64,000 nucleotides of DNA, from the NCBI GenBank assembly GCA_963575645.1, contig OY754464.1:47296192-47360191 (forward strand). The letters run 5' to 3'. Origin of the DNA: Xanthostigma xanthostigma (lineage: Eukaryota; Arthropoda; Insecta; Raphidioptera; Raphidiidae). Shown here piece by piece: positions 16,244 through 38,933 of the stretch (positions are counted from its first letter, which is position 1; the number at the start of each line of letters is the position of its first letter). Under the pieces are notes generated by a model. That model did not search any database. It was not told where the DNA came from and was given only the letters and a program-made list of their open reading frames with translations. Both the position numbers and the translations under genes were made by a program.

Positions 16244-19200
16244 ATGAAGTGCATAATTATATTCGATCATTTAAATGATATAATATATTCAAAATATAAT
16301 AAGAAGTTTTCGAAACATATTCGAAATGTCGCTTTATTGCAAGGACTTGTAGAAGAAGACGATGTGAGAACCCTTTTACAGAGATCGTTTGTTAAAAATA
16401 ATTTAACCTGTTATTACTTCGGTCATAAAACACTTGCCCCTATTTTTTGCTTTCTTACTTACGAAAAAAAACATTTTTTTCAGTTAAAAAATGATCAGGA
16501 CAAAAAACTTAATCCTAACGTTATCATGCAAATTTTTTCGCCTCTTGTCACATCACAAAGAATTATGAGTTGTCAGTTTGGAAATTCGTATACGTCAGTA
16601 CAGTGCCAAGACGGATTAAATATAGCTTTTGATGAGGTATTTAAAAATAAATAAATTGACTAAAAAAATTCCGATATAATATTGTATTTGACAAATTTTT
16701 AGTACATGGGATATCTTTTTGTTAATATCGGCAATCAATCTATCGACTTCTTAAAACGGAGCTTAGGAATTTGCATATCCTTTGTAAGACATCTGTGTGG
16801 ACCAGATGTAACTTTGTACGTATCAATTAATACAAATGAATAAATTGGTAACTGTAACTAATTGTTTAAAGATATAGTTTTTAATTTATAGGCTCTGTAT
16901 TATCCATTTTCAGAGTTTTTGTCCGTCTGTTTTAAAAACATCAGGGAATAGGATAGAATAGAAGAATAGAATATAATTTATTATCCATATTAAGCGGATA
17001 CGTGAAAACACCAAATTACAAACTACTAAAACTTGGCTATAATAAGGTGTAAACAGCGTCAATCTCTTAATAATTAGTAATAACCGATTACCAAATTACA
17101 AAACAATCAATTTAGACATTTATATCGGCGGTTATAAAAATTGGACAAATGAGGAATATTGTGCCTTTTATTCTCTTTTGCGAAATTGTAAAAAAAAAAT
17201 AGATTTTTACTGGAAATTTAGATTTTAAGACTTAATTGACACCCCTACTATATAGTATAGACCAGGTCTGGGCAAATGGCGGCCCGCGGGCTGGATTCGG
17301 CCTGCGCAGCACAACTTTGTCCGGCCCGCGAAGCATTTTATAAATTTTAGAAAAATAGTAAAGAAATAGCAAGGGCGCCCCAGAAGAGACGAAAAGGAGA
17401 TATTTTTTTTTTGCTCTCCAAATGCGGAAATACAATGTGAAGACCACCAAATGTGGAGTTTTTAAAAAAGCAATTCCGGGGTGAACGATAAAGGGGTATG
17501 CGAATTGTCTCGCAGTGAAACGGGAAGGGGTAAATGTGGAGTTTTTAAAAAACAATTCCGGGGTGAACGATAAACGGGTATGCGAATTGTAATTCCGGGG
17601 TGAACGATAAACGGGTATGCGAATTGTAATTCCGGGGTGAACGATAAAGGAGTATGCGAATTGTCTCGCAGTGAAACTGGAAGGGGCAAATGTGGAGTTT
17701 TTAAAAAAACAATTCCGAGGTGAACGGTAAACGGGTATGCGAATTGTAATTCCGGGGTGAACGATAAACGGGTATGCGAATTGTAATTCCGGGGTGAACG
17801 ATAAAGGGGTATGCGAATTGTCTCGCAGTGAAACGGGAAGGGGTAAATGTGGAGTTTTTAAAAAACAATTCCGGGGTGAACGATAAACGGGTATGCGAAT
17901 TGTAATCCCGGGGTGAACGATAAACGGGTATGCGAATTGTAATTCCGGGGTGAACGATAAAGGGGTATGCGAATTGTCTCGCAGTGAAACGGGAAGGGGT
18001 AAATGTGGAGTTTTTAAAAAACAATTCCGGGGTGAACGATAAACGGGTATGCGAATTGTAATTCCGGGGTGAACGATAAACGGGTATGCGAATTGTAATT
18101 CCGGGGTGAACGATAAAGGGGTATGCGAATTGTCTCGCAGTGAAACGGGAAGGGGCAAATGTGGAGTTTTTAAAAAAACAATTCCGAGGTGAACGGTAAA
18201 CGGGTATGCGAAAAAAAAAATGATGTAATGGGTTTGTTGGCCACTAGTTATTAGATATGCGTTCATAAAAAAGATTTCGTTTTAAATAGACTTAAATTGC
18301 TGCCAAAATTAGAATATTTTGAGGTAACTATTTTGCTGTGCATATTAGTATTTCTGATTGTCATATGGATTTTATTTGTATTAAAATTCCAGGAATATTG
18401 ATTTGCAGTTAAATACCACCCATATTTTTACATTAATTTGATCAATTATACTTAGAAAAAGCCAATTTAGTCGCGCCAAGTTTTTAAATACATACAAACA
18501 AGTAAAAAACACGAAATATCAGAGTAATTGTTTTGTTTTTTTGACAATTCAGTTGTTTTTCGTAAATAGACAAAACTCAATATTATATATGATTCGTATA
18601 TATAAGACTATTTAATGAGTAATATACACAGTTTAACTAGTAAAAAATTTCAGATTGAAATCAAACAGATCTCAAGCCAGTTTATTATCAAGACTTATAG
18701 ATACGTGGATTGCATTAAGAGAAACGGATCAAGCGATTTTAGTGGAAGCTGTTGAACAACTTATGGTCAATTCAGATCTAGCATCTGCCACTTTACAAGC
18801 ATTGCAAAGTGCAACCGATAAATTAAAAACTCAGGCCGATTTTAGCAGAGTGCACGCTATGATTTTAGTACAAAATAAATTTTTATCTTTGTATTCAAGG
18901 TAAGAATTCTAAAAAAAATAGTTACCGTTGAACCATTTTCGTGCGATACCTCATTCAGCCGCGAGAGGCAGCACTTGTAGGGACATATTCAAAAGCTTCC
19001 TCTTATCTCATTACATGTAAGCTCTGTTCCAACCTCTCTGCAATCGGTAATAATGCAAAGTCGACGCATGCGCACAAAACTGATACAAACCAGTTTCGTT
19101 TTAGCTACTGCGCATGACTGACGATATTACCGTTCGCAGAGAGGGTTGGAACGTAGCTTTAATTTGCAGAGTGTCAGTATATTTTATTTACAGTGTGGAA

Positions 19201-22200
19201 GAAATACTGTGCTTTGGCATATTGTACGTCAGATAGTTGATATTAAATTCAAATTTTGAAGTCTCATTCGAAGGGGTTAGATATCCATAAAATAATTTAG
19301 AGATCAGATAAATAAAATATGTAAAAAACATTTCAAGTTAAACGGTTTTTTCCATGGTGTATTAAAAGCTAGAAAATAATGATGGGGCCTTGATCAGATT
19401 AAAATAAAATCGTGGAACGCATCTAGTAAAAAACTGTCTTTTGTAGGAAATCGGAAATCATAATATCTGACTTTCGACTGTTTTCTGCGACCTTATTACT
19501 TATATTTAGTAATATTAAGAAAGTTTCCTACTAGATGCGTCGCACAACTTTATGGCTTTAGTGCATCTTATTTTTAAGTTTTTATTGTGCTTTATTTGCT
19601 TAGTTCGATTTTATTTTATTTTATTAGATTATCCGATTCACTGAAACGCTAAGGGAGCTTAACCTTTAAGCTGTTTTAGTCGCGTTATTTTCAAAAAATT
19701 CATATTTTGGTTTGCTAGTTACAAAGGACGCAGATTTCTGATCCTCTCCAACTTTCTCAGTGCCTCATTATTGCAAGGTTATTATCATCGGATCTACACA
19801 TGTGTGCAAAATTTCAACTCAATCGGTTAACGGGAAGTAAGTGAAAATTTAAAAGTGCGATTCGCACCCGGACGAAGCCGGGCTGGTCAACTAGTTACCA
19901 TAATATTGTATGTATTGTCATCGGAACTACATACACATGTGTGAAAAATTTCAACTCAATTGGATAACGAGAAGTCGGTGAAAAATCGGTTTCAAGATTT
20001 GAAACAAATATAGTTGGTATAAATAAATATACAGAGCGTGAACTTAAATGAATTCGTTTAAAAATACGAAATTACGTATGCTTGCCTTAAACTGAAACAT
20101 TTATTGGACCTGAAAGTCAAGCTATGGAAATTTACAGATTCTATCACAGACCTGACCTTTAAAATTAGTAAATTTATTGTTGCTGAGTTTGTTTATTTAT
20201 GTTTTCCGCTACTATTTTTACATAAAAGCCAATAGAACTTTTTTGCACCTACCATACCATTTGCGCCACAAGTGAGCGATTTTTCATTCAAAATGGTCCA
20301 TTCTATTTCTAATAATATGCCAAATTGCCTAAAGTGGATTGATCCTATCTAGCAAAAGTAATAGATGCTTCCGGATGCGCGCGGATGGCGGGCTTGCAAT
20401 GACATTCAAAAAAATATATATATTATAAAGTCCGTATATTCTGCCCTAAAAAGGCAAAGGGCAGTAAGTGACATTTGTTGAAAAATGAGTTCATACTGAA
20501 ACCAACGACAGCAGTAAGTGCTGCAGCAATAATTTTATTGTCTTTAAAAAATGTGTCTCCCATGTTTTGGTTTCCATAATCTAAAATTCTGGACGGTCAA
20601 TACATTTTTAGTAAATCTTGATTTACTCAAATTCATAAGTTGGTAACTTCTGCCTTTTGCCTTTTTACGGCAGTATTATGGTGTGTAGAAAGATCTCAGT
20701 TATACACAACCCTAAGGATTAATAATGTGGTTCTATATTTTAGTCGAAATGCTCAAGATCTGTCAGCAACAGATATGCTATTTATCACCGTACTGTGTGC
20801 AGCATCAGTTGCGAATGAAAAATTAATTCCTGCTGAAGCCGATACGGATACCGATGGCAGCGAGGAATATTTCAGTCCGTCGACCAGTCCGCAAGACAGT
20901 CCTATTAAAACGAATAAGCAATTCATATTTGGCGCAGAAATGAAAAGCGAACAGAGTTTCATAAGTCATTCTGTACTTTTAATGGGAAATAGTACAACAT
21001 CAGCATACATACCACATGTGATACACATTACGTCACTTACTGACGGCGTTCACTTGTTATTTATGATCGAACACGGAAATATTACAATATCTTCCGGACT
21101 GTATGAATCGTTCAACACTTTTAGTATATTACAAACCGTTCAGATGCAAAAAGATAGCGATTCGTTGAAATCGGCTTTTGAAAATGTTGACTCGGCTCTG
21201 AAAAAAACAACGGATATTTTTAAAAAAATGAAAAACGTCTTACCAGAAGTTGATACATGCCAAAAAAAACTTGTTGCCAAATGGGAATTTATTCGTAAAA
21301 AATATATTGAATTGTTTAAATCTGGTGATTCGGATTGCAGTTTGCGAATTGAATCGAGTACAGCTGGCTTGTTGGAGAATATGAAAGAATTATTACAATT
21401 AACCTGTTTCGATCCGAGTATACTTTATCGTAATACTGAAACAATTATGGAGATCACAGATCAAGTTAAAAACAAGCTGTCAAACTTCAGTGATTTTTTA
21501 AAAGTCAAAGCGTTACGTAATTTCACGCTTGGGTCATATCCTTTTGGTTACAATATAATAACTTATTTTTGCATGACTTCGCTTTTTTTTTTCAAGCTTA
21601 TGCCCTTGGGCTTGGATATAAACAAATAATATAGAATCGCAATATAAATAAAGTAATGTGCATTATAATCAGTTTTCCTAAGAAAACGTTTGCTAAGAGT
21701 GACGTTCCTCTTAAGTCTGTCTTTTAAGAGAGCCGAAATTTAAAAATGTAAAACTGATTTTTCTAAACCTCAGCCGTAAAAATTTCAAAATTGTACTTTT
21801 CTCGAAACGATTCGGCGTATTTTTGAACCCTCGTAATTTCAGTCTGAATAACACTTCAGATCTCTCAGGATAGGATAAGGTTACCATACTTATGTAATGT
21901 ACCAAATTTTATTTTTATAGCTATTCTACTTTAGATTTTATTAAACCTTTAGAGTATTTTTTCTTAGTCCTAGAAAGCTGAAATTTAGTGTGCAGGCTGG
22001 GTTTCACGTCCAAGTAATGAAAAAATTAAAAAAATCTGTTATTTTCCCCCTTCAACCTCAAAGTGGAGGGTTGTAGATTTCTATGGATATAAAAAAGGCA
22101 GGTAGCACACACTGTCGAAGTAAAACCATTGGTAAAACTTCAAAGTTGGTATAATATTTTCCTACAAAAAGAATTAAATTCCCATCAAAAACATTTCATC

Positions 22201-25200
22201 TAAAAAATGTTGCCAAGTCTTGGCGTTGATAGTCAATTAAAAATATAAATGTGAAAAAAGAGGCCATACTCAAACATAAAACATGAAAACTTGCCTCCTT
22301 TTTAAATCTCAATTCTTTTTGAACTGACTCAGTTCAAAAAGAATTGAGAGTTCAACTGAGTATATCCACTTTTTCACATTTATGTTTTTAGTGAACTATC
22401 AACGCGAAACTTGGCAACATTTTTTATGAAATTTTTTTGATGGAATTCTACTATTACGTTTTCAATTTCATTAAAATCGGATTACTTGTCTGAGATAATA
22501 ACAGATTCAAGATGGCGGAGTTTCTCAATTTAATTTGTATACCTTCTCGCAAAAATGCTGTCTCACATAAAAACACAAAGAAAACTGCATCTCTTCTAGA
22601 TGCTTATCAGAACGCAGGATAAAGATCTTTCAGAGCATATAAATGTTAAATTCAAACGCATTAGGAAGCTCGGATCTATCTGAATATAAAACTGAACGTG
22701 TCCGTTGTAAGAACACAGTATTTTCGATCTTTGTTTGATTTTTATCTGTACCGTTTACAACACTAGCACCTCTGAGGATCAGAACCCAAAGCTACAGTAG
22801 AACCTTGTTTATCTAATGTGTGGAGGAGGTACCTCGGAAAAGCGAAAACTCGGATAACATGAAAGAAATAAAAAATTCGAATATTTTAATCGTTTTTTAT
22901 GAATATATATAATGGTAGAATAAAATTTTATCACAAAAGTGTATAAATAAAAGTGTTGCACAAATAAGCAGCAAAGAGGGAAAATATTACGCGCGTACAG
23001 TATGGGCATAGCGGCTTCATCCGTTTTATCCGAGTTTTTAGGTATTATCCGAGCATACACCTCGATTAATGCGGAGTGGTCGGATAAGTCCGTTGCCTCG
23101 GATAACGTGAAGACTCGGTTGATCGAAGGCTGAATAAACGAGATTTTATTGTAGTTCAAAAAATAATTTCCTGACATTGCGAAATATAATGTATGCATTA
23201 ATCAGGAGCTATGCTTTGCTAAATTGTAAATTTTGGTGCAGCGACAGCATTTTAAGAAAAAAAAAAAATTATGCATGTCATTAAACAAAGTTTATATTAG
23301 AGGTATAAGGTAATGACTTGTTAATATAGTAAAACCTCTTTAAGTCGAACCTTGATAAGTCGAAAACTTTCCAAAACTCGAAAAAATGTTTTGTTCCCTT
23401 CCCGTCAAGCCCCAAAACCTCCATTACTCGAAATCTCAACCGTCTATAGGTCTAAATAATTAGTGAGTCCCTACAAGCAATTGCAGTACATATTTTCCCT
23501 CCATAACTCGAAAAAATAAATCGGATTTCTGTATCTCGAACTTATATACTCAAAATTAGTTAGAATGAATCTTAACCTCTACAAGTCGAATATTTTCTTA
23601 CAAAATCCGCCTAAGTCGAAAACTCTATAACTCTAATTGTTTGGCGTCTCCCTTGAAGTTCGACTTACAGAGGTTCTACTGTATAATAAATTTCTCACAA
23701 AAATACAAACACTTATATCTGCTTATATCATGTTATAAAAAATTATTTGAGATATCTTCTTTTCTGCACCGAAATTCTACGTAACATAAAATCTAAAGTA
23801 CTTTGATCTCAGTCAGTTAATTTCCTATAGACCTTAACACAGCTGTGTTAATTGTTGGGCTAACCTCGCCCTTAATGGACTACTTTTTATTTTTGTGTGA
23901 AGTTTTCAAAGAAGCTATAGTAGCTTGTAGCTTTAAAAATCTGCTTTTAACATTTAAATTCCCCTAATTTGCAGGGCAATAATTATGTCAACAAAATTAC
24001 TTTCTTCTCAAAAATTCTGGCTATTACCATTGACTAAAATATTACATACCTTAATCAATGCTATTACCTACTGTTAAATTGTCATAAATGTTAAAAATCG
24101 CAGAGAATTAGACAATTAAAACAAGACATTAATACTTCTTTTGCCCATTGTCCAATTCCCTGCGATTTTTAACATCAGTAAGAAGACTGTACGCGAATAT
24201 ACTAACTTCTTGTAATAAATTCAAATGTCACCGCCGGGACTTGGACCAGAAATTCAGTAATGTCCTCAACTAATAAATGCATTTTTCAAAATTTGATTTT
24301 TGATTGACCTAATCCATATTGTAACAGAAATGGTGACGCTTATTTAAATAATAAGAAAAAAAAATTGCTGGTATTTTAAAACTTAGAATATCTTTGTAAC
24401 TATTATTTTAATGATAAACTTCGTTTCAAAGTATCGGCGAATTTTCGTTCCAAAGAATCGTCATTTCTGTACCGCATGTTGATGAATTTATGTGCTCGCT
24501 ATGTGTCGTTTTGACCTTAATTCCGTAGCACTAGAGCTTCCCTAACAATCAACAAGTATTTGGAGGAGTTCCCTGGACTAGTGCACTTTCTCTACATAGA
24601 CAGAACTTCGCACAGGGTTACTGCACCGAGTCTAGATTTCAATTCCGAAGAAACAGTTACGCTAACGAAAAAAAAGGTAATTCGTTTTGAATTGACTTTT
24701 TTATTGTTGGAATCTAATAATTGTTTAAAATAATTGAAAAAATAAAATGGCGAACTGTGAACAGCTGATTTTGTTGTGTACTTAATAAAGAAGTTATGTA
24801 TTTATGAAATGATATTAAGAATACAAATCTTTGATTAACGTCTGAATAGAACTCTTCAAATAAATAAAATTGTCGACCAATTTTTTTTATGTTATATTTT
24901 TATATTTTGTCAATATATATTGGTCTGAGAAAAATTGGTCGACAATTTTATTTATTTGAAGATATTAAGAATAGGTGTAAAAAATCAATTAATAAAATGA
25001 AACTGTTAAATTGATTCCAAACCAAAATCACTAACTCTTTTGGAAATTTAAAGGCGGTTAAAGAGTAAATTTAATTATTACTAGGGAACAAATTTTAAAG
25101 TTCTATATATGTACTTGAGTCACCAGTTACCATTATAACATTTTTTTGTTGTTTTATTTGAAGATATGGTCGATGATTGAATTTTCAAGAAGTCACCTGC

Positions 25201-27182
25201 AAGAAGGCCATCTTGCGTTTATGTGGAAGGATACAACTTTTAATTATGCATACTTCCTTTGGTTTGAAGATATGGCTGGATCACCTCTTAAGCCAAAAGT
25301 GTTTCCGGCTACTGGTTCAAAATTATTACCCCTACCTGGAATATTAGCAAGCGATTTTTATCCGTAAGTTGTGATATATATTCACAGTTAAATTATGACT
25401 GAATAGGTTTCAATGAGTGATTTGAAATCTCTTTACTTGTGAAAAAACCTAATTATTAGTGTTGGGAAGAATCGTCTTTTTTGAGAATCGAATACTCCGT
25501 ACTCGAATACTTTTAAGAATTGAATACTTAAAAGAGTACCGAGTACTCGAGTACTGTCTAAACTCTAAAATGACCTTCTCATTGCATGCAGTTGATAGTC
25601 TGTCAGCTGCTTAGAATCGATGCTAACCGAATACCGTCAGCTCGCACTTTAACTTGTGCTTGAAACACTGAAATACTGAATGATGATTGGCCGTGCAATT
25701 TTTATGCATGTTATATTGTTATAACCGAAAAATTTAGATATCATAATATTTTTAAAATAAGATTGAATTTAGTACACGTAAAATACATAATAATAGGGCC
25801 CCTTTAGTCGTCACGCAGTTTAATACCTCAAGTGAATAATACCAGTTTAAAATTTTTAGAAAAATTTTAAATACCAACAGGTTACCGTCAGGACTCAAAC
25901 CTGAATTTACCAATTTCGCGTTGGTTGATTTATCATTTAATCTACAGTAACCGATGTACATCGGTGATTTGAACTTTTATTTCTGTCACCGTAAATACCA
26001 TTTATAAAAGTTCAAATCACCGATGTCCATCGGTTACTGTAGATTAAATAATAAATCAACCAACGCGAAATTGAAATTCAGGTTTGAGTCCTGACGGTAA
26101 CCTGTTGGTATTTAAAATTTTTCCAAAAATATTAAACTGGTATTATTCACTTGAGGTATTAAACTGCGTGACGACTAAAGGGCCCCTATTAATATTTTTA
26201 AATACTTATTGTCGTTAAAGTTACTCTATCTATTTTATTTTTTAATCTAAATGTCATTTTGTTTATATGTCAAACGGAGAGTTTATTTATTTTTGTATTT
26301 TTTAATAAATAATTGCAAGTAATGTTTTTAGTTACCCTAATAAAAATATTAAAATCAAAATAAGTAAGTACGTGCCCCTTCTCACTATGTAAGTACGTGG
26401 CGTTTCTCACTGAATGTTTATATTAATGTTGACGAAACGCCTAATATCTATAAATAGGTATAGGTTGTATTCGGTATTTGAGTAGGCACAGAATCGCATT
26501 AACTGTAAAAAGAATTCAATCCCTGCAGTGTGTATTTGAATACCAGTGTGTATTCGCGCAGGTGCAAAAACGCATCAACTGTAGAAAGAATTCGTTTACT
26601 GTACTGCTATGTGTACTCGGTCTCCAGTCTTCGAATACCAGTTACAAGTACAGCGAGTACTGAATCGATTCTTGTACTCGAGTACCCCATCACTACTAAT
26701 TATAACTGGGACTGGACCCTTGAAAATTGTTTGAGTTAAGATGTTTTGCTGTACAAAATTTACGGAAAAAATTCGTTTCTAGGACGAATTCGTAAACTGA
26801 AAATTTATTTTACGAGCCAGCATAACTCTTTCTTACAACTAGACATGTAGTTTAGAAGTATTTATTATTGTAGTTAACAATCCTATTTTTTATACAAAAA
26901 AAAATTCTTTTATCGGGACTTGTCTCTATTTAAACATTAGTATTAAACAAATGATTATAATTACTGAAATACATATAGTGACTAAATTTTCTTTGTTTTT
27001 GCAGGAAACTAATTGAAATTTGTTTTCCGAAAATGGCACCCAACAAAGTACGATGTTACGAATTATTTTGTATTCATTTAGGTCTAGCCACGTCTTCTTG
27101 CGTCTTAGAACATACTCGAAGATTAGCCGCCACCATATGGGAAGTTACAGGTGTTCCAAATAATCCCGCCGATTTGTTGTAA
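16244..27182 (+). CDS. HPS1: HPS1 homologue, BLOC-3 subunit
   Basis: Exons: 16244-16636, 16703-16815, 18654-18899, 20744-21535, then exon 5 starting at 24535 or 24556 and ending 24676, 25164-25363, 27005-27182. The product is about 680-687 aa (human about 700). The start at 16244 gives MKCIIIFDHLND, aligning with human MKCVLV; the in-frame GTG at 16214 is not needed. Colinear matches run along the whole protein: LRETDQAILVEAVEQL (exon 3), GSEEYFSPSTSPQDSP (exon 4), EEFPGLVHFLYIDRT (exon 5), YAYFLWFEDM (exon 6) and VRCYELFCIHLGL (exon 7). HPS1 pairs with HPS4 to form BLOC-3, the guanine nucleotide exchange factor for Rab32/38 in biogenesis of lysosome-related organelles (pigment granules in insects). 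Exon 4 ends in a U12-type 5' splice site (see findings). Introns carry a satellite (17453-18211), pogo-like elements and an hAT element. Confidence 0.94.
17262..17350. mobile_element. End of an hAT-like element (GGCCCGCGGGC type)
   Basis: The sequence from CAGGTCTGGGCAAATGGCGG through GGCCCGCGGGCTGG and CCGGCCCGCGAAG is GC-rich and unlike its AT-rich surroundings. It resembles the common ends of hAT-type MITEs. The matching other end is not visible; the satellite begins about 100 bp later. Confidence 0.35.
17453..18211. repeat. 37-bp satellite with a 156-bp higher-order repeat
   Basis: Fourteen 37-bp units (consensus starts AATTCCGGGGTGAACGATAA and ends GTATGCGAATTGT) are arranged mostly in threes. 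Six copies of a 45-bp linker carry CTCGCAGTGAAACGGGAAGG and GTGGAGTTTTTAAAAAAC. Three units plus one linker make about 156 bp. On the minus strand it is stop-free across 17232-18266, because 156 is a multiple of three and the 37-bp unit has no stop in any minus-strand frame. It lies in HPS1 intron 16816-18653. I regard it as a non-coding minisatellite. Confidence 0.9.
19020..19158. mobile_element. Compact MITE related to element A
   Basis: The ends AGCTCTGTTCCAACCTCTCT and the complement of AGCTACGTTCCAACCCTCTC are inverted. The interior has GATACAAACCAGTTTCG and TTTTAGCTACTGCGCATGAC, shared with element A at 1540-4322. It is about 140 bp and lies in HPS1 intron 18900-20743. Confidence 0.65.
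22184..22447. repeat. Palindromic MITE in the HPS1 U12-type intron
   Basis: An inverted repeat centred near 22325 (TTCTTTTTGAACTGA / TCAGTTCAAAAAGAA). Arms of about 130 bp begin at CCATCAAAAACATTTC and end at its degenerate complement. It is non-coding. Confidence 0.65.
22795..23151. mobile_element. pogo/Tigger-like MITE 1
   Basis: Left end CAGTAGAACCTTGTTTATC, right end GAATAAACGAGATTTTATTG, flanked by TA on both sides. Subterminal CTCGGATAAC motifs are repeated in both halves. The CAGTAGAACCT-type terminus and TA target fit pogo/Tigger elements of the Tc1/mariner superfamily. The interior encodes no transposase; a 129-codon minus-strand ORF across it is not conserved-looking. Confidence 0.7.
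23327..23681. mobile_element. pogo/Tigger-like MITE 2
   Basis: The ends are TAGTAAAACCTCTTTAAGTC and GACTTACAGAGGTTCTACTG with flanking TA. The interior repeats AAGTCGAA and ACTCGAAA motifs many times. It is 176 bp downstream of pogo-like MITE 1 and related to it only through the termini. Confidence 0.7.
24825..24963. repeat. Family R repeat, copy 2
   Basis: It begins TTTGATTAACGTCTGAATAG, then ACTCTTCAAATAAATAAAAT, and closes with the inverted segment AATTTTATTTATTTGAAGA. The interior holds the inverted pair GTCGACCAATTTTT / AAAAATTGGTCGAC. It lies in HPS1 intron 24677-25163. Confidence 0.6.
25457..26695. mobile_element. hAT-type element with 8-bp TSD, containing a nested palindrome
   Basis: The termini are TAGTGTTGGG and CCCATCACTA. 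The duplicated target CTAATTAT flanks it exactly (25449-25456 and 26696-26703), as expected for hAT. Subterminal regions are rich in CGAGTACTCGAGTACT-like motifs. A separate palindrome is nested inside (25790-26194). There is no transposase. It lies in HPS1 intron 25364-27004 and resembles the element at 56187-57068. Confidence 0.85.
25790..26194. repeat. Long palindrome nested in the hAT element
   Basis: Arms of about 190 bp are centred near 25990. They start AATAGGGCCCCTTTAGTCG and end with the near complement. Both arms carry AGGTTTGAGTCCTGACGG or its complement, and CGATGTACATCGG / CGATGTCCATCGG near the centre. Few differences separate the arms. Confidence 0.75.
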
Positions 27183-36095: not shown

Positions 36096-38933
36096 TTAAT
36101 TTTTTTCAACATTTTTATTAGATTTTGAATTAACAGAAACATCTTTTATAGGCGCACTTGTCTTTTCTTTAGCAGCATCAGCAAAACTTTTCCTTTGAGG
36201 AGTTTTTACAATCGGTGAATTATTTATCAAGCTTTCATTACTGATTTCACTACTTTTCTTTGCTTTAGGGGAATTTTTCCGCGTTTCGTTCCGTGGACTC
36301 TTCGAACTATAATTTTCTGTTCCACTATCATGAGCCACATTTATTATATGACTTTTAGATCTGTTTTCACAATTTAAGTCTTTTCTGACGGGTGTCTGCG
36401 ACATTTTAAGTTTCACATCATTTACAAAAGAAAAACTATCATCTATGGCGTCACGTAACGAACTATTTGCTTTTGAAACATCTCCAACTTTCGTGTTATT
36501 CATAATAACTTCTTGATCCGAATTTGATTCATTAACTACATCAATTTTTTTCTCATTACTTACATCATATTTTACCTCGCTCTCATTCGAATCACTTAAA
36601 TTATTAATATCGTTATCGCTATTCGTAAGGTCAATTCTATTTCTGTCATCTTTTATCCTCTGTTTCCTTTCAATCAATTCACAACGTAATCTCGCTACTT
36701 CCATTTCCAGATTAAATAACTTTTCTTCATATCTTACCATATTTTCAATTGATTCGTTTAAATTAGCTTGAACGACATTTTGTATCTGATCAATAATCTG
36801 GACACTTGAAACACCTGCATTGGTATTTACATTTTTAATAAGTTTACTAAACGAATCAGTATCTTTAGGTCCGTTTTTATAAGCATTATATGAATTGCCT
36901 AAATTTTCAATTTTCAATGGAATTTCTTCAAACAACTTATTTCTGTATCTGAAAAACGTTTGATTGAAAAAGAAAACTGATCTTTTATCATTTAATGTTG
37001 AATTTAAAATGCAAATTGAAAAGTTCGTATCAGATATATTAAACAGTTGTGATAATCCCTTATGAACGATTTTTTCACGTAATGTTAGTCCTCTTGTATC
37101 TGAATGATGGTATCGATACCATCCCACAACATTTTCCCATTTATCTTTAAGGTAACTCTTTATCTTGTCATGGTCAATCGATCCGACATTATTATTAAAC
37201 TGGTTCAGCAATGGTAGAGGAAACACTGCGTTGATGACAATTCTTTGTTTCGTTTGTACATTATGGATGTCTGAATCAGTTACTGTGCTTACTATTTCTT
37301 TTTTGCACGAACCCAGAAGAAATCCTTCCTGAAAAAAAAAAATGGGAACATGTTTGTATAAGAACATAGTAATAACATAAAAACAATATAGAAAAACAAT
37401 ATTACGTTGAAATCAGACGTATAAAACAGTGCTCTGAATACGAATTTCCCATTTATCGGGGAAGGATTGAGGAAAAAGCACCCATAAAAATGTTGCTTTA
37501 CGTTAGATTTTATAATGGAACTATTTTTAATTTATAAAAATGTACATTTACAAAACTCATTCTTTAAACATCCCTATAGTATGTATAGGTGTGGACATAG
37601 TTTTTACCGTTTTTACTAAAGAGCCGATTTTCAAAAAATCCCAAATTACAATAACAATGTAACTAAAGTAGCTCTGGTTTCTCACACTAAAAAAATAGTT
37701 TACTGAAGCAAGTCGATAAAAAACAGACCTATTTGAGGCTTTCATGGCATACGCTACTTAAACCATTAATGCAATGTATCGAAGAATTGTTGGGCTAATA
37801 TAATTATATACTATAAAAAAAGCAACAGCCTATCTCAAAAATTGGATGGAATGGACTGTTGGTAAAACAAAATCCTATGTTTATAGTAAAATATCAACTC
37901 CTGTCAAATATTAAAATATGTTGTCTATTATACATTGGCACATCATTTTTTGACGTGATAACGTCTTATAAATTGATGAATCACCAATCTTATAAATTGA
38001 TAAAATACCGGCTGCATGCACGAAAAAGTGTAACGTTCCTAAATCCTAACTTTCCTAACGTTCGTAACGCGTAACGTTCCGCCTGACCCTGTGCGTGCTT
38101 TTTGCTAATTTCTCGCTCAATTTAAATCAGATCGGTTTGAAACCAGTCTTAAACGAAAGAGGAGAATATTTTACATAGATTTCGTATAACAGAATTTGCC
38201 TAAACAGTTTTTTTATACAAATTTATATAGAAAAATAGCTGTATAAATGCAATGTTGTCTAACGCATGGCGCGACGCGGTCGGTCGTCTTTGTTTGCCGT
38301 ACATGGAAATTAGAAGATAACGTATGTCTTGTCTTTTAACATGAAAACGGCTGCATTTCTAATGTTTAATTCAATTTTTTGACATTAGTATTTTGTGAAA
38401 TGCAACGCCTTCTAAGTTAAGTATTGGAATAACTAATTATTATTAGAACATAATACTTTGACAGTTGCAAACGTCATTTTTGACATTTCTTATCATTCCG
38501 ACACCAAGGATAAGCGGATTGAAAACAAATTTTGGGAGGTTTAGGTTATGTATTACGGAATACGTTATCACGTAAAACTATCGTCCGTAAACCGACTTTA
38601 CAGACAACCAATTTTTTTTTAAAAAACATTAGTTTGCATAAGCAAGTATCAAATAAAATTTCTGTTACCAAATTATATAAATTAAGATAAATCGCGATTA
38701 TTTTAAAAAGTTATTGAGACAATCATTTCTTAGCAGTTACTTCTTGACGGAAGAGTAGTTAGGTTAAGTTTGTATCCGTTCTGTTTAGAGTTGCAAGTAA
38801 GGCAATTCAAAAATATTAAAAAAAAATTGATTATAAAACAAAACTTTACCTGGTGGTCTAACGACTTTATGTTCTCGTACAATAAAAAAGAAAATGCTGG
38901 ACCAGAAATTGACACATACGCACCATCAGCCAT
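36096..38933 (-). CDS. ABRAXAS: Abraxas/Abro1-family MPN-minus scaffold of a BRCC36 complex
   Basis: Two exons on the minus strand: 38850-38933 (ATG at 38931-38933) and 36096-37328, giving 438 aa. Exon 1 encodes YVSISGPAFSFLLYENIK and joins GT-AG in frame to EGFLLGSCKKEIVSTVTDS, colinear with human Abraxas SISGYTFSAVCF...EGFLLG. VVGWYRYHHSDTRG and LREKIVHKGLSQLF follow, then YEEKLFNLEMEVARLR, a coiled coil, and a long Ser/Asn/Lys-rich tail. The JAMM metal motif (HxH...D) is absent, as expected for this scaffold. Abraxas proteins pair with the active deubiquitinase BRCC36 in the BRISC or BRCA1-A complexes, which cleave K63-linked ubiquitin. The C-terminus (NVEKN) lacks the pSxxF motif that binds BRCA1, so a BRISC-like role is more likely. 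The 77-codon ORF at 35909 is 3' flank. The intron 37329-38849 carries family G copy 3. Confidence 0.88.
37945..38620. mobile_element. Family G element, copy 3
   Basis: Same ends and order as 28651-29213, but with an additional segment of about 90 bp at 38251-38339 that is richer in CG (GGCGCGACGCGGTCGGTCG) and absent from copy 2. It lies in the Abraxas intron. It is non-coding. Confidence 0.7.

Follow-up and report, generated by a model that had tools for sequence, protein, structure and literature searches.

Minor (U12-type) introns with AT-AC termini make up about 22-26% of human minor introns (PMC8280824, PMC6717393, PMC7367187). Termini listed as 'other' account for 5.2% of U12-type introns in human, reach at most 14% in certain vertebrates and stand at 0% for the three insects of the same table, where the share of AT-AC introns ranges from 8.3 to 47% (PMC7367187 Table 2). 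Among orthologous minor introns of animals, non-canonical termini have been reported at ~3.8%, with AT-AA as the commonest non-canonical type (PMC10639083), and introns of the AT-AA / AT-AN class are reported to depend on CENATAC in human cells (PMC8280824). A distance of 11-13 nt between branch site and 3' end is described as optimal (PMC3584512). By its title, the paper of Feng et al. 1997 (cited in PMC9526055 and PMC7818423) assigns a rare AT-AC intron to the mouse pale ear gene; neither the letters nor the number of this mammalian HPS1 intron were found in the accessible parts of the literature that connects HPS1 or Hermansky-Pudlak syndrome with AT-AC, U12 or minor introns. In human HPS1, exon 17 is reported to begin at c.1599, i.e. 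with the third base of codon 533, which places the junction at c.1598/1599, and a human HPS1 minigene yielded bands of 408 and 263 bp (PMC11355033).

The window analysed here, a stretch of 64,000 nt from Xanthostigma xanthostigma (C1:47296192-47360191 of the 623-Mb assembly), contains an HPS1 gene with seven exons on the + strand (16244-27182). Its predicted protein has 680 residues if the intron that follows exon 4 ends in AA at 24555, and 688 if it ends in AC at 24531. Three Fuz/MON1/HPS1 longin domains (PF19036, PF19037 and PF19038) score above their Pfam cut-offs, and the sole PDB match at E values up to 0.001 is the human HPS1 of BLOC-3 (8zwc_A, E 5e-46), which served as the human reference for alignment. 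The exons and the 5' splice site under study are as follows.

16244..16636, + strand: HPS1 exon 1, coding from the ATG, with the first longin domain
16703..16815, + strand: HPS1 exon 2
18654..18899, + strand: HPS1 exon 3, aligned with human HPS1
20744..21535, + strand: HPS1 exon 4, with a phase 2 end within codon Ser515 (human alignment)
21536..21544, + strand: U12-type 5' splice site ATATCCTTT directly after exon 4, by sequence
24556..24676, + strand: HPS1 exon 5, the portion common to the U12 models, homologue of human exon 17 (human alignment)
25164..25363, + strand: HPS1 exon 6 (human alignment)
27005..27182, + strand: HPS1 exon 7 including the stop codon (human alignment)

A search of the genome for a second HPS1 copy or retrocopy that would record the splice found none: the C-terminal protein query returned four matches, all from the gene in the window, and each of two DNA queries, covering 21460-21535 and 24480-24676, had a single match, at the HPS1 locus itself.

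A preliminary description of this DNA had placed a perfect U12-type AT donor directly behind an HPS1-like exon 4 and had let the homology resume in exon 5, and both points were borne out. Exon 4 ends with KVKALRNFTLGS (protein ...RNFTLGS). The sequence directly behind it, from 21536, is ATATCCTTT, which agrees with the 5' splice site consensus RTATCCTTT at 9/9 positions and starts exactly at the edge of the homology to human HPS1; the alignment is taken up again by exon 5 with YLEEFPGLVHFLYIDRT from 24557. As ATATCCTTT occurs three times in the window when both strands are counted (2.3e-5 per position; the other copy on the + strand lies at 16775, inside exon 2), the donor owes its weight to its position where the homology ends and not to its rarity. 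The exons up to 21535 sum to 1,544 nt, so that the intron interrupts codon Ser515 between the second and third base (phase 2). The sequence supports the assignment of the HPS1 intron at 21536 to the U12 type, as an A-type intron with an AT donor.

With the AA end, the human alignment contains no gap between R508 and RNITMVS-YLEDFPG, so that the junction serine is residue 533. Since human exon 17 starts at c.1599 within Ser533, human intron 16 interrupts the same codon in the same phase 2 as the intron in the window; the comparison with human intron positions that had been proposed in the preliminary description thus ends in a match of both codon and phase. The next HPS1 intron is likewise co-located with its human counterpart, in phase 0. 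From the minigene bands of 408 and 263 bp it follows that human exon 17 measures 145 nt and ends at c.1743 in phase 0, like exon 5 here. It is longer than the exon with the AA end by 24 nt, owing to an internal stretch of eight residues, and that the exon with the AC end is also 145 nt long is a coincidence. Judged by its position, the AT-AC intron of mouse would correspond to intron 16. As for the AT-AC intron that the preliminary description had ascribed to human HPS1, the title of the 1997 paper supports one in the mouse gene, and for human the agreement is one of position and phase. The intron in the window thus resides in the same gene as the AT-AC intron of mouse Hps1 and shares codon and phase 2 with human intron 16, but would differ from the mammalian intron in its 3' end, which here would be either an AC shifted 24 nt upstream or an AA. 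Inheritance of this minor intron from a common ancestor with vertebrates would best explain the shared position, and HPS1 would then be a case of a minor intron whose codon and phase have stayed the same in this animal and in human. The intron, which probably ends in an ordinary way, is a well conserved element of a known kind and no strange new type.

A genome search gave one match each above the gathering score for the U11, U12, U4atac and U6atac snRNAs, and the animal's own U12 snRNA carries GTAAGGAA. In the search for a CENATAC homologue, the best match reached 21.5 bits, below the cut-off of 25.3, and contained one stop.

The ambiguity that the preliminary description had seen at the 3' end is supported. 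Several ends keep the frame, and two of them are accompanied by candidate branch sites. The ends beginning with A that are in frame and open are AG 24528, AC 24531, AG 24534, AC 24546, AT 24549, AA 24552 and AA 24555. Three of these (AG 24527-28, AG 24533-34 and AA 24554-55) had been named before, and the AC at 24552-53 had correctly been set aside since, by count on the sequence, it breaks the frame; AC 24530-31, AC 24545-46, AT 24548-49 and AA 24551-52 had been missed. The two ends with candidate branch sites are these.

24513..24521, + strand: candidate U12 branch site GACCTTAAT, adenosines 24519/24520, 12/11 nt to 24531
24530..24531, + strand: in-frame AC end (TAGCAC/TAG)
21536..24531, + strand: preferred intron, AT-AC, 2,996 nt, putative
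24538..24546, + strand: second candidate branch site TTCCCTAAC, adenosines 24544/24545, 11/10 nt to 24555
24554..24555, + strand: rival AA end, with a gap-free fit to human HPS1

Both spacings lie at or near the published optimum. Compared with the branch consensus TTCCTTRAY, neither site is perfect: GACCTTAAT agrees at 7/9 positions and keeps the core intact (CCTTAAT, 24515-24521), while TTCCCTAAC agrees at 8/9 but carries a C for T that breaks the CCTT core. Pairing with the animal's own U12 amounts to 6/8 for the upstream and 7/8 for the downstream site. The corresponding pairing energies (-4.9 kcal/mol for GACCUUAAU, -3.8 for UUCCCUAAC and -7.4 for the consensus) cannot discriminate branch sites, because unrelated 9-mers from the same intron go as low as -5.9 kcal/mol. 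Pyrimidine content (12/20 in the last 20 nt before 24531, 11/20 before 24555) separates neither intron types nor ends here, because the five GT-AG acceptors of HPS1 range from 8 to 14/20, and the Pfam scores of the three models (AA 86.8, AC 86.6, GT-AG 86.8 bits) are equally uninformative because the matched domain begins downstream of the junction.

In our judgement, the acceptor used is somewhat more probably than otherwise the ordinary AC at 24530-24531, which would make this an AT-AC intron; this weighting and those of the alternatives below are judgements and not the outcome of a fitted model. Ordinary termini, an intact branch core and near-optimal spacing speak for this AC, and the downstream site can be explained as its relic predecessor. 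Against it stand one fewer match to the branch consensus and one fewer pair with U12 than at the downstream site, as well as eight residues, RASLTINK, which it adds at a conserved place where human HPS1 lacks them and which go along with a weaker human match across the stretch (119.4 bits versus 131.9 with the AA end, from queries of unequal length). Because an in-frame AC with near-optimal branch spacing is available, the non-AC end considered in the preliminary description is not required. Nor would such an end be as unusual as had been thought there, given the standing of AT-AA among the non-canonical minor introns of animals (PMC10639083).

That standing is one of the points in favour of an AT-AA intron, 21536-24555 (3,020 nt) with TTCCCTAAC as branch site, which we regard as rather unlikely, though as the next most probable reading. 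It would yield S/YLEEFPG, whose exact fit to human the preliminary description had already seen; the protein is colinear with human HPS1 and aligned to 8zwc_A without a gap across the junction, and the branch site is good both in consensus and in spacing. Yet the branch core is broken, AT-AA is far rarer than AT-AC, and the CCTTAAT...AC pair upstream would be left as a coincidence. With an end at 24555 the intron would belong to the AT-AA / AT-AN class (PMC8280824), with the difference that here an in-frame AC is also available.

How often such pairs arise by chance was counted over 127,680 positions on both strands of the window. An in-frame AC preceded at 10-14 nt by a branch site of at least 7/9 with the CCTTRAY core, within 30 nt upstream of a junction, occurs at 42/127,680, this strict criterion having been set after the site had been seen; under a looser criterion that admits any 7/9 branch the figure for the upstream pair is 1,536/127,680. 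A branch of 8/9 that lies 10-14 nt before a fixed junction, as found for the AA end, occurs at 325/127,680. Both pairs exceed chance, and therefore both units look real or once real. Together with the frame, which both preserve, this is what recommends a use of AC and AA as tandem U12 acceptors, each with its own branch site, so that one isoform would contain RASLTINK and the other would lack it. We nevertheless consider simultaneous use improbable, since a review describes U12-type introns as hardly ever alternatively spliced in human and their alternative 3' ends as possibly errors (PMC3584512).

Slightly less probable again is the remainder, namely a U2-type GT-AG intron at 21517-24536 or another U12 end (AG 24528, AG 24534 or AC 24546). 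All of these keep the frame, but the GT-AG intron (21516 joined to 24537) loses the conserved RNFTLGS, as the preliminary description had already noted, and its donor TAC/GTAATT has no G at -1 or +5. As to the U12 ends, AT-AG is described as disfavoured (PMC3584512); the distance to the intact branch core is 26-27 nt for AC 24546 and no more than 8-9 nt for AG 24528.

Complete AT-AC introns of the same genome offer a calibration; seven genes were examined for them, and two, STX6 and ZNF830, yielded one each. The STX6 intron has 696 nt (ATATCCTTTT...ATCCTTAAC...CCATAC, spacing 13/12) and that of ZNF830 920 nt (ATATCCTTTC...GTCCTTAAC...ACATAC, spacing 11/10), and their removal gives proteins like those of human. 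Both resemble the HPS1 intron in the ATATCCTTT donor and in a branch-to-end spacing of 10-13 nt. They differ from it in that their CCTTAAC core is intact and their AC end coincides exactly with the homologous junction, without added residues. The calibrators therefore favour the upstream HPS1 unit by their core and AC end, its CCTTAA core being intact, and the downstream unit by their lack of added residues.

In NAA60 a third A-type donor, ATATCCTTTTT, was observed after GGHPPWGVY (reverse strand, 5370 of the stretch examined), and no acceptor for it was found within the stretches examined. The remaining genes did not serve as calibrators: PHB2 has GT-AG at those of its junctions that were displayed, KCMF1 shows no U12 donor at the exon ends examined and a weaker ATATCTTTT inside an intron, SMYD2 is without a clear orthologue, and in prospero the junction in the conserved domain is GT-AG. 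The latter junction, within NFREFYY (C8:6203035-6233979), reads gtaagtcg...tttcag. For prospero of the fly (a twintron) and PROX1 of human an AT-AC U12 intron has been listed (PMC2831892), and a change from U12 to U2 may have taken place if the positions are equivalent.

Under the preferred AT-AC reading of the HPS1 intron, recognition of ATATCCTTT at 21536 would fall to U11 and U6atac, U12 would pair with a branch site shortly before exon 5, and the AC at 24530-24531, 11-12 nt past CCTTAAT, would serve as acceptor. The product would be an HPS1 that carries eight additional residues, RASLTINK, in front of longin domain three. The TTCCCTAAC...AA site, which lies at the ancestral junction and 24 nt further downstream, may be the decayed old acceptor or a minor alternative; as it stands it would be two substitutions short of a perfect TTCCTTAAC...AC. 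With somewhat less than even confidence, we suggest that the two in-frame branch-acceptor units, 24 nt apart and ending in AC and AA, represent either tandem isoforms or an acceptor in the course of moving upstream whose ancestor is still readable. The HPS1 intron could in this respect be a natural case for U12 acceptors that shift or that tolerate a non-AC end.

In the orthologous human intron, the variant c.1599-16T>G falls into the region in which one would look for a U12 branch site. It is reported to cause skipping of exon 17, an effect predicted by no software (PMC11355033). Two results limit this evidence: splicing was normal in RT-PCR from blood, the authors' explanation being that the variant transcript decays, and exon 17 was also skipped in part by the wild-type minigene (PMC11355033). 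In a word search, the main text of that report contained none of the terms 'U12', 'branch', 'AT-AC' and 'minor spliceosome'.

Other introns of the HPS1 gene contain repeats. Intron 2 harbours a tandem array (17472-18212; period 156, 4.7 copies, 96% matches, 37-nt units), and intron 6 a near-perfect palindrome (25787-26195) with arms of 122 and 70 nt that are 97% complementary, which is perhaps a mobile element. Further downstream, the - strand of the window holds an open frame of 438 aa at 36096-37412 with an Abraxas-like MPN domain (PF21125, E 1.4e-41).
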